Source: Erysipelothrix amsterdamensis
GTDB lineage: Bacteria; Bacillota_I; Bacilli_A; Erysipelotrichales; Erysipelotrichaceae
Assembly (NCBI RefSeq): GCF_940143175.1
Contig: NZ_OW659496.1
Coordinates: forward strand, 1,488,001-1,552,000
Direction of reading: 5' to 3'
DNA: 64,000 nucleotides
A program made the translations under genes and the position numbers. This document shows, piece after piece, positions 1,002 through 25,650 of the stretch (position 1 is its first letter; each line of letters starts with the position of its first letter). Below the pieces are notes generated by a model. That model made no database searches and was not told where the DNA came from. It saw only the letters and a program-made list of their open reading frames with translations.

Positions 1002-1043
1002 AAAGAGACGTGAAAATATCCTATCATGAAGATAAGGCTCTTT

Positions 1044-1112
1044 TGCCATAGTTTACATCTTTACGGGATGTAAGTAGAAACTTCCGGACCATATTACCAG
1101 AAATATATGGAG
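1044..1112 (-). ncRNA. Purine riboswitch aptamer, guanine class
   Basis: The minus strand shows the whole purine aptamer. P1 is CCATA/TATGG, P2 is TTCTGG/CCGGAA, and P3 is TTACATC/GATGTAA with the CCGTAAA loop. The joining strands are GTTTCTAC (J2/3) and ACTAT (J3/1). The specificity nucleotide in J3/1 is C (ACTAT rather than ATTAT), which in this family means guanine/hypoxanthine rather than adenine. It precedes an intrinsic terminator and the permease gene, so ligand binding should lower permease expression. Confidence 0.93.
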
Positions 1113-1190
1113 TTTTTTCATACCTTAAGACTAACACGCACCGGTACAACATGCAAGCCTTGATAACTGCTATTTATTGTATAAATTTCA

Positions 1191-9680: not shown

Positions 9681-10516
9681 TCATCAAGCTCGTTGAAGAG
9701 TATCGCAACACTGTATCTATTAAAGATATCTTGAATCTTTTTGGGGTACCTAAGTCAACGTATTACCGTTGGACTAAAAAAGAGCAACTTGAGTCTAATA
9801 ATTATTCTGTCAATGAAGCATTAGTAATTGAACTTTGTAAAGAAAATAAATTTCGTTATGGATATCGAAAAATAACTGCATTAATTCGAAAAGAAAGAAT
9901 TATCAATAAGAACACTGTTCAAAAGATAATGCAGAAACACCAATGTCAATGCCGTGTTAAGGTCAAACGGTATAGAAAAAACAAAAATCCGAAGATCATT
10001 ATGCCCAATATCATTAATCGCGACTTTAAATCACTACGTCCTCTAGAGAAATTGGTGACAGATATCACTTACATCCCTTATGGCCATAAGATGCTCTATT
10101 TATCTACGATCATGGATTTATATAATGGTGAGATTATTGCGTCTACATTGAGTGACAGACAAAACCTAGAATGTGTGGTTGATACATTAAATCAACTTCC
10201 GGATATCGTTCAGCCATGTATTCTTCATTCTGATCAAGGGAGTGTCTATACATCAAAAGAGTATCAACTCAAAGTAAAAAATAAAAGCATTACCATGAGT
10301 ATGTCCCGTAAGGGTACACCCGCTGATAATGCTCCTATCGAATCGTTTCATGCCTCGCTAAAGTGTGAAACATTCGAATTAAACCCAGACCTAAAGGGTT
10401 CTACTGAAATTGTATCACAAACTGTGATAAACTATTTAAAATATTACAATGAAAATCGAATACAAGAAAAGCTAGGATATCAATCTCCCGTAAATTATCG
10501 GTTAACTTCATCCTAA
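9665..10516 (+). CDS. IS3-family transposase OrfB, DDE catalytic domain
   Basis: 283 residues counted from a GTG; normally made as the OrfAB fusion. The integrase core has the DDE signature: LVTDITYIPYG (first D), LHSDQGSVYTS (second D) and APIESFHASLK (E), spaced as in IS3 elements. An N-terminal HTH_21-like region (YRWTKKEQ to KFRYGYRKI) is also present. It differs from the copy 2 OrfB at two visible residues (K versus R, and D versus E), so the copies are recent relatives. Confidence 0.94.
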   Translation: MVPEIIIKLVEEYRNTVSIKDILNLFGVPKSTYYRWTKKEQLESNNYSVNEALVIELCKENKFRYGYRKITALIRKERIINKNTVQKIMQKHQCQCRVKVKRYRKNKNPKIIMPNIINRDFKSLRPLEKLVTDITYIPYGHKMLYLSTIMDLYNGEIIASTLSDRQNLECVVDTLNQLPDIVQPCILHSDQGSVYTSKEYQLKVKNKSITMSMSRKGTPADNAPIESFHASLKCETFELNPDLKGSTEIVSQTVINYLKYYNENRIQEKLGYQSPVNYRLTSS

Positions 10517-22356: not shown

Positions 22357-22532
22357 GTTTATCATTCTCCTTTGATATTTATTATACAATAGTCTTAATT
22401 CTCTATCCTTGTGAATGCTCATTTTGTTATTTTAATCACGTTATTTTATTCTTTTTTTATGAGTATATTGGGTGAAAATCCTGCGTGAAGACTCTATAAT
22501 AACGGTGGGTTAATGAGCTGGGAGGTTTTATT

Positions 22533-23267
22533 ATTATTGAGTTTAAAAATGTTTCTAAACATTATCAAGGTAAAAACAAAACATTCAAGGCACTCGACAA
22601 CGTTTCCTTTGAGATCAAACAATCTGAAATTTTTGGAATTATTGGTGAAAGCGGAGCCGGTAAATCAACTGCGTTGCGTTTAATCAATGGATTAGAACTA
22701 CCCGATGAAGGTGTCGTTTTCGTTGATAGCACCGATTTAAAATCACTATCAAGTAACGCAATGCGTTCACTTCGTAAAGAGATTGGCGTCGTTTTCCAGA
22801 ATTTCAATTTGTTGGGGAATCGTACAGTGTTTGATAACATTGCCTTGCCACTAAGACTTGCAAAGAATAAAGATTGTAATGCGGTGTCTGAAGCACTTTG
22901 CTTTGTACACTTAGAATCAAAGATCCACCACTATCCTGCACAACTCAGTGGTGGTGAACGTCAGCGTGTAGCCATTGCGCGTGCACTGATTACTAAACCT
23001 AAGATTTTAATTTGTGATGAACCATCATCTGCCTTAGATCCTCATACTACCAAAGAAATCCTTGAGGTTTTAAAACAGATTAATCAACAATTCGGCACAA
23101 CAATTGTGATTGTTACTCATGAATTAGAGGTTGCGAAGACGCTGTGTGATCGGGTTGCGATTTTGGATAATGGAACGCTTCATGAAGTGATTTCAGTAAA
23201 TCGTCACGACGAAGATAATACAACACGCTCTTACGCAATCCATGCAAAGGACTACTTATTACAATGA
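22533..23267 (+). CDS. metN: Methionine ABC transporter ATP-binding protein, apparent ATT start
   Basis: ATPase of a methionine importer. The frame encodes IIEFKNVSKHYQGKNKTFKA, then Walker A GESGAGKST (about residues 40-48), the signature [15 protein letters not shown] and Walker B ILICDEPSSALDP. The first in-frame ATG is at 22674, after Walker A, so it cannot be the real start. No GTG or TTG is in frame upstream of Walker A. A strong SD (GGGAGG, ending at 22525) points to ATT at 22533, or 22536. The product is then 244 residues, somewhat short because the C-terminal ligand-sensing domain of long MetN proteins is absent. It overlaps metI by 4 nt. Confidence 0.88.
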   Translation: MIEFKNVSKHYQGKNKTFKALDNVSFEIKQSEIFGIIGESGAGKSTALRLINGLELPDEGVVFVDSTDLKSLSSNAMRSLRKEIGVVFQNFNLLGNRTVFDNIALPLRLAKNKDCNAVSEALCFVHLESKIHHYPAQLSGGERQRVAIARALITKPKILICDEPSSALDPHTTKEILEVLKQINQQFGTTIVIVTHELEVAKTLCDRVAILDNGTLHEVISVNRHDEDNTTRSYAIHAKDYLLQ

Positions 23268-23926
23268 TATCGATATACGCTGAATTTCATGCTGAGTTGC
23301 TTAAAGCACTGAGCGAAACCTTTATTCTTTTAGGATTTTCAATTCTATCTGCACTTTTAATTGGATTACCACTGGGCACACTTATCTACCTTACCCGCAA
23401 AGACGGGTATTACGAAAACCGATTTGTTTCGTTTATCTTAAATGGATATGTTGATGTGGTGCGTTCGTTTCCGTTTTTATTGTTTATTGTGTTTATGATT
23501 CCAGTGACTCGATTCTTAATTGGGACTTCACTTGGAACTTATGCAGCCTCAGTACCCATGAGTTTTGTTGCAGCGGCATTGTATGCTCGATTTGTTGAAC
23601 AAGCACTCCTCGAGGTTCCTCAGGGAATTATTGATAGTGCCCTCTCACTTGGAGCAACACCGTTTCAACTTGTTTTTAAATTTCTGTTTGTTGAAGCACG
23701 ATCAGGCCTTGTCCTCGGACTTACATCTTCCATTATTAGTTATGTAAACTACTCGACGGTAATGGGTGTTGTTGGTGGAGGTGGTATCGGAGACTTCGCA
23801 ATGCGATATGGTTATCAGCGATTTGAGTGGCAAATCATGTATGCAACCATTCTCATTATGATTGTTCTCGTACTGATGATTCAATTTACAGGAAATAGAA
23901 TCGCTAAACGAATTGATAAGCGATAA
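23264..23926 (+). CDS. metI: Methionine ABC transporter permease
   Basis: 220-residue inner-membrane permease with five or six hydrophobic segments. The EAA-type loop facing the ATPase is visible as GIIDSALSLGATPFQLVFKFLFVEA (around residues 125-149). Its ATG overlaps the metN stop (ATGA), so translation is coupled. Order metN-metI-metQ is that of the D-methionine/methionine uptake family. Confidence 0.93.
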   Translation: MISIYAEFHAELLKALSETFILLGFSILSALLIGLPLGTLIYLTRKDGYYENRFVSFILNGYVDVVRSFPFLLFIVFMIPVTRFLIGTSLGTYAASVPMSFVAAALYARFVEQALLEVPQGIIDSALSLGATPFQLVFKFLFVEARSGLVLGLTSSIISYVNYSTVMGVVGGGGIGDFAMRYGYQRFEWQIMYATILIMIVLVLMIQFTGNRIAKRIDKR

Positions 23927-23935
23927 GGAGAAAAG

Positions 23936-24724
23936 ATGATTAAAAAAGGACTTGTATTACTCACAGCAATGCTCATGCTTACCGCATGTGGCGCCAAAAA
24001 TAATCCAGATGACATGAAGTTAAAGGTTGCATCACATATGATGCCAATGACCGATGTTGTCGAAATTGCTAAAGAGGAATTGAAAAAAGACGGTTATGAA
24101 CTTGAACTTGTATCCGTTTCAGACAATACCCAAGCTAATACTGCTCTTAATAATAAGGAAATCGATGCTAACTTCTTCCAACATGTTCCATTTATGGAAA
24201 TGTTCAACAAGAGTCAAAGTGGAACTCTTGTGGGCATTCAGCCGATCTATGATGCAATTGTAGGTTTCTACTCTAAAGATCTTAAAGATCTTAAAGATTT
24301 AAAAGATGACGCGAAAATTGCTATTCCAAATGATGCAGTCAACCAAGCACGTGCCCTTCTAATCTTGCAAGATGCTGGACTCATCACATTAAAAGATGGC
24401 GTTAAATATGATGCAACGATTAAAGACGTAACAGATCATAAAAACTATCAATTTATCGAAGTTGATCTCTTAACTTTAAATCAAGCATATGAAGAAGTTG
24501 ATCTCGTATTCAACTATCCTACTTACATAAAACAAGTTGGACTAACACCAAGTGATGCACTGATTTTAGAAAAATCAGATGGACACTATGCCATTTCACT
24601 CGTAGCACGTGAAGATAATAAAGAAGATGTGAAAATTCAAGCACTTAAAAAAGCAATGACAAGTGATGCAGTTCGTAAATTCTTAACAGAAGAACACAGT
24701 GCAACACTCTCACCAGCTTTCTAA
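23936..24724 (+). CDS. metQ: Methionine-binding lipoprotein
   Basis: 262 residues. Signal peptide with lipobox LTAC (Cys 18), then the NlpA/MetQ binding-protein fold (LKVASHMMPMTDVVEIA, EIDANFFQHVPFMEMFN, AIPNDAVNQARALLIL). A short in-frame tandem repeat of 9 bp encodes KDL three times around residues 113-122. It begins 10 nt after metI with AAGGAG. The following terminator is split by IS copy 2, so transcription may run on into the IS. Confidence 0.94.
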   Translation: MIKKGLVLLTAMLMLTACGAKNNPDDMKLKVASHMMPMTDVVEIAKEELKKDGYELELVSVSDNTQANTALNNKEIDANFFQHVPFMEMFNKSQSGTLVGIQPIYDAIVGFYSKDLKDLKDLKDDAKIAIPNDAVNQARALLILQDAGLITLKDGVKYDATIKDVTDHKNYQFIEVDLLTLNQAYEEVDLVFNYPTYIKQVGLTPSDALILEKSDGHYAISLVAREDNKEDVKIQALKKAMTSDAVRKFLTEEHSATLSPAF

Positions 24725-24798: not shown

Positions 24799-25650
24799 TT
24801 AGGATGAAGTTAACCGATAATTTACGGGCGATTGATATCCTAGCTTTTCTTGTATTCGATTTTCATTGTAATATTTTAAATAGTTTATCACAGTTTGTGA
24901 TACAATTTCAGTAGAACCCTTTAGTTCTGGGTTTAATTCGAATGTTTCACACTTTAGAGAGGCATGAAACGATTCGATAGGAGCATTATCAGCGGGTGTC
25001 CCCTTACGGGACATACTCATGGTAATGCTTTTATTTTTTACTCTAAGTTGATACTCTTTTGATGTATAGACACTCCCTTGATCAGAATGAAGAATACATG
25101 GCTGAACGATATCCGGAAGTTGATTTAATGTATCAACCACACATTCTAGGTTTTGTCTGTCACTCAATGTAGACGCAATAATCTCACCATTATATAAATC
25201 CATGATCGTAGATAAATAGAGCATCTTATGGCCATAAGGGATGTAAGTGATATCTGTCACCAATTTCTCTAGAGGACGTAGTGATTTAAAGTCGCGATTA
25301 ATGATATTGGGCATAATGATCTTCGGATTTTTGTTTTTTCTATACCGTTTGACCTTAACACGGCATTGACATTGGTGTTTCTGCATTATCTTTTGAACAG
25401 TGTTCTTATTGATAATTCTTTCTTTTCGAATTAATGCAGTTATTTTTCGATATCCATAACGAAATTTATTTTCTTTACAAAGTTCAATTACTAATGCTTC
25501 ATTGACAGAATAATTATTAGACTCAAGTTGCTCTTTTTTAGTCCAACGGTAATACGTTGACTTAGGTACCCCAAAAAGATTCAAGATATCTTTAATAGAT
25601 ACAGTGTTGCGATACTCTTCAACGAGCTTGATGATTATTTCAGGAACCAC
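24799..25650 (-). CDS. IS3-family transposase OrfB, DDE domain (copy 2)
   Basis: 283 residues, nearly identical to the OrfB at 9665-10516, differing visibly at two positions (R for K in the segment before NKSITMS, and E for D in NPELKG). The catalytic motifs TDITYIPYG, HSDQGSVYTS and PIESFHASLK are intact. Made by -1 frameshift from orfA at 25677-25671. No inactivating change is seen. Confidence 0.94.
   Translation of the reverse strand: MVPEIIIKLVEEYRNTVSIKDILNLFGVPKSTYYRWTKKEQLESNNYSVNEALVIELCKENKFRYGYRKITALIRKERIINKNTVQKIMQKHQCQCRVKVKRYRKNKNPKIIMPNIINRDFKSLRPLEKLVTDITYIPYGHKMLYLSTIMDLYNGEIIASTLSDRQNLECVVDTLNQLPDIVQPCILHSDQGSVYTSKEYQLRVKNKSITMSMSRKGTPADNAPIESFHASLKCETFELNPELKGSTEIVSQTVINYLKYYNENRIQEKLGYQSPVNYRLTSS

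Follow-up and report, generated by a model that had tools for sequence, protein, structure and literature searches.

The window analysed here, a 64,000-nt stretch of the Erysipelothrix amsterdamensis genome, carries a three-gene operon on its forward strand: metN (22533..23267, +), encoding an ABC importer ATPase of the MetN group of 244 aa, metI (23264..23926, +), encoding the permease, and metQ (23936..24724, +), encoding a substrate-binding lipoprotein of the MetQ/NlpA family. The ATG of metI overlaps the metN stop codon by 4 nt (ATGA), as in all intact copies of the genus, and metI possesses a weak Shine-Dalgarno sequence (SD) of its own; metQ is preceded by its own SD, AAGGAG. Judged by its sequence, the product of 22533-23267 is a MetN-like ATPase of reduced length, and the operon is of the metNIQ type. 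It scores 259.9 bits against TIGR02314 (MetN), below the curated cut-off of 499.7, the match ending at position 226 of 343, and the C-terminal NIL domain, which mediates trans-inhibition by methionine, is absent from it and from its orthologues in the genus (239-244 aa). As the ATPase lacks this domain and scores below the MetN cut-off, methionine is the presumed substrate, by family similarity. Elsewhere the genome encodes a MetN paralogue of greater length (354 aa, counted from the start of the match). Our literature search for Erysipelothrix metN found no paper.

Read directly from the sequence, the metN frame extends from stop to stop over 22503-23267, and its 5' end is TAA(22500) CGG TGG GTT AAT GAG CTG GGA GGT TTT ATT(22530) ATT(22533) ATT(22536) GAG TTT AAA AAT GTT. 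The earlier note had stated that this frame contains no ATG, GTG or TTG ahead of Walker A, and the direct reading agrees: the first such codon is TTG 22674, located among the final codons of Walker A. This is the sole place where the ORF caller sets the start of metN, and the protein so called is devoid of the P-loop. The GGGAGG motif noted earlier 7 nt ahead of ATT 22533 was likewise found, at 22520..22525 (+), where GGAGGU pairs fully with the anti-SD. Three consecutive ATT codons follow at 22530, 22533 and 22536, at distances of 4, 7 and 10 nt from GGGAGG. In the alignment with E. coli MetN (3dhw), residue 2 falls on the residue of codon 22536, and therefore Met1 corresponds to ATT 22533 (22533..22535, +), which also matches the position of the E. 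tonsillarum ATG. Thus, 22533 is the most likely of the three codons, with 22530 and 22536 as further candidates. The earlier proposal that metN starts at ATT, likeliest at 22533, now appears well supported by the alignment with homologues, the distance to the SD, the retention of the codon in three species and the example of infC in this genome.

The SD:anti-SD duplex available to ATT 22533 has an energy of -11.4 kcal/mol, which falls between the 10% and 25% quantiles of the SDs of the best canonical starts in ORFs sampled from the genome (median -8.7, 10% quantile -11.8 kcal/mol). Upstream, a sigma-70 type promoter was predicted at 22472..22500 (+; GTGAAA, 17-nt spacer, TATAAT; 10/12 matches), whose TATAAT is retained in E. 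tonsillarum and in the more distant G006. With the transcription start deduced from these boxes, the predicted leader ahead of ATT would measure only ~25 nt. A search of the leader for riboswitches, T-boxes and other known RNA elements returned none, and no stable fold was seen in it (z 0.76).

The proposed ATT start is shared by three genomes, each counted as its own species of the genus: that of the window (G000), G005 (95% protein identity) and G004 (94%), all of which carry the ATT triplet and the SD. The longest run invariant across the three within the operon region comprises 113 nt (22494-22606), beginning at the -10 box and ending at metN codon 24/25; metN codons 1-24 are invariant, compared with 34 variable codons among the first 180 (permutation P 0.004), and when the leader and these 180 codons are considered, P for the run length itself is 0.006. 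A second invariant run of 104 nt covers the metN/metI junction. Overlapping promoter, SD and start, and perhaps a further signal, may account for the 113-nt block, which we take as support rather than proof, and the identity may partly reflect the closeness of the three species. The earlier note had also suggested inspecting the codon in other strains and considering a sequencing error; the latter is ruled out as the source of ATT, as three separate genomes carry it within a block free of differences. At the homologous site, metN of E. tonsillarum (protein 80% identical) reads GGGAGGTTATTTT ATG ATT CAA TTC, placing an ATG exactly where ATT 22533 lies, with the same 7-nt SD spacing. In G006, GGGAGG is followed after 7 nt by ATT ATA CAA TTT and an in-frame ATG overlaps the SD; its metN start is uncertain, and AUU is possible there too. 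Elsewhere in the genus the codon is TTG (G003) or ATG (G001, G002 and G012). In the trees, E. tonsillarum adjoins the three ATT species, the window's genome lying in the clade sister to it, and therefore ATT either arose in the ancestor of the three species or dates from further back, E. tonsillarum having exchanged it for ATG.

A precedent for this codon usage lies in infC of the same genome, which reads AAGGAGGTGAATTTT ATT AGT AGA AGA (locus L047, shortly before position 1500). Across the readable infC loci of the genus other than that of G009, ATT or ATC occupies the start position (ATC in G001, G002 and G010), and IF3 is probably made from AUU here, as in E. coli. Given this apparent AUU start, the ribosome of this genome is plausibly able to initiate at AUU. 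We surveyed the window together with 20 spread stretches of 20 kb (400 kb), in total 464 kb with about 357 ORFs, for a strong SD ahead of a non-canonical codon with no canonical start nearby, and metN was the sole convincing case in this sample. Of the two other candidates, one is a 129-aa ORF that we judged unlikely to be coding, and the other possesses a canonical start that itself follows a strong SD. Genes such as infC, where canonical codons occur in frame 5' of the SD, escape this filter; a second filter picked up neither metN nor infC, the latter serving as control, and was uninformative.

From these observations we propose that transcription from the promoter at 22472-22500 would yield a short leader in which the GGGAGG SD directs the ribosome to AUU 22533, 7 nt further on. 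There, fMet-tRNA would start inefficiently, resulting in low MetN, and the strong SD would partly offset the weak codon, as in S. aureus. The SD of metI has an energy of -4.4 in the ATT species, whereas the remaining species all have a stronger one (-7.0 to -11.9). Because of the ATGA overlap and this weak SD, AUU probably limits MetN and, by coupling, MetI, which would be low as well relative to MetQ with its own SD. Importers of this type usually have more binding protein than membrane complex. That AUU 22533 starts metN by way of a strong SD and a short leader, and that MetN and MetI output is thereby held low with respect to MetQ, we regard as very probable; initiation at this codon, its low yield, the coupling to metI and a possible sensitivity to IF3 are the parts of this explanation that we infer.

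As to the last, dependence of importer production on the discrimination by IF3 would be reasonable by analogy with infC, pcnB and sigR. The data fit a simple start of low output just as well. An IF3-dependent control common to the importer and infC, in which MetN and MetI would follow the level of IF3 or the state of the ribosome and MetQ would not, is put forward only tentatively, as a possibility that we consider rather unlikely.

To our knowledge, well-supported AUU starts outside infC are confined to very few genes. The AUU start of infC itself is known from E. coli and others. It resembles that of metN in lying behind a strong SD, and infC of the window's genome apparently uses AUU as well; however, infC is autoregulated by IF3, whereas metN encodes no translation factor and its control by IF3 is putative. 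In E. coli pcnB (Binns and Masters 2002, as cited in PMC13009471), AUU likewise keeps output low, although the protein is unrelated and the host Gram-negative. In S. aureus, AUU and AUA starts behind strong extended SDs give ~10% of the AUG yield in poor medium, and those of cvfC1 (AUU), ccpN and citZ (both AUA) are backed by retapamulin profiling and reporters (PMC13009471). These, too, are Firmicute genes with non-canonical starts and strong SDs, cvfC1 even heading an operon, but they have experimental support, whereas metN is known from its sequence, and there is no transporter among them. Furthermore, the start of Streptomyces sigR governs the stoichiometry of neighbouring gene products, as proposed here, but it is a different codon, GTC, and repression by IF3 has been demonstrated for it (PMC5472188). 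The proposed AUU start of metN would join the known ones of infC, pcnB and S. aureus cvfC1.

Three other readings of the 5' end were weighed. CTG 22518 is the only further codon of the stretch that counts as a usual initiator in table 11; it is in frame and overlaps the front of the SD, and initiation there would place a five-residue N-terminal extension ahead of ATT (MGGFIIIEF). CTG is an accepted initiator, and the site is occupied by ATG in G006 and by TTG in E. tonsillarum; yet it is preceded just by GGTGGG (-6.7 versus -11.4 kcal/mol for ATT 22533), which would sit at or ahead of the predicted 5' end of the transcript, the SD itself would be translated within the extension, and homologues begin at the ATT position, which makes this start quite improbable.

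Could metN instead be decaying, its start codon lost and the gene untranslated? The metN copy of G004 carries a one-base deletion in an A run near codon 183 that breaks the frame (locus L024, around locus position 2050), so that this copy may be broken or misassembled, and the paralogue mentioned above provides a second full-length MetN in the window's genome. Against this, dN/dS over the first 180 codons is about 0.18 with respect to G005 (dN 0.02, dS 0.11) and 0.07 with respect to G004; SD, frame, operon and ATGA overlap are intact in G000 and G005; and ATT has been retained ever since the three species split. Given such purifying selection, the window's metN is no pseudogene, and decay seems very improbable.

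An out-of-frame upstream ORF of 56 aa (22513..22683, +) starts with ATG and overlaps metN; its ATG and stop are retained in the three ATT species, E. tonsillarum has ACG for the ATG, and its function is doubtful. Initiation at ATG 22513 followed by a -1 shift into metN at the heptamer T TTA AAA (22542-22548) is hardly credible. In its favour, the heptamer, read in the upstream frame, follows the pattern X XXY YYZ, an SD-like GGGAGG lies 16 nt 5' of it and the ORF is retained in three species. However, E. tonsillarum lacks ATG 22513 and begins metN directly at ATG, the predicted transcript offers ATG 22513 no proper SD, no stable structure was seen, and the distance between SD and heptamer exceeds that of dnaX.

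With the start of metN placed at AUU 22533, callers restricted to ATG, GTG and TTG miss it and return an ATPase truncated through Walker A. Furthermore, the ATT species and E. tonsillarum with its ATG form a clean natural pair for measuring the effect of AUU on the operon.

Besides the operon, the window contains a purine riboswitch at 1029-1130 (-) and two matches to rli23, an antisense RNA family of Listeria, at 10320-10419 (-) and 24896-24995 (+), the latter lying antisense inside an IS transposase gene (24799-25650).
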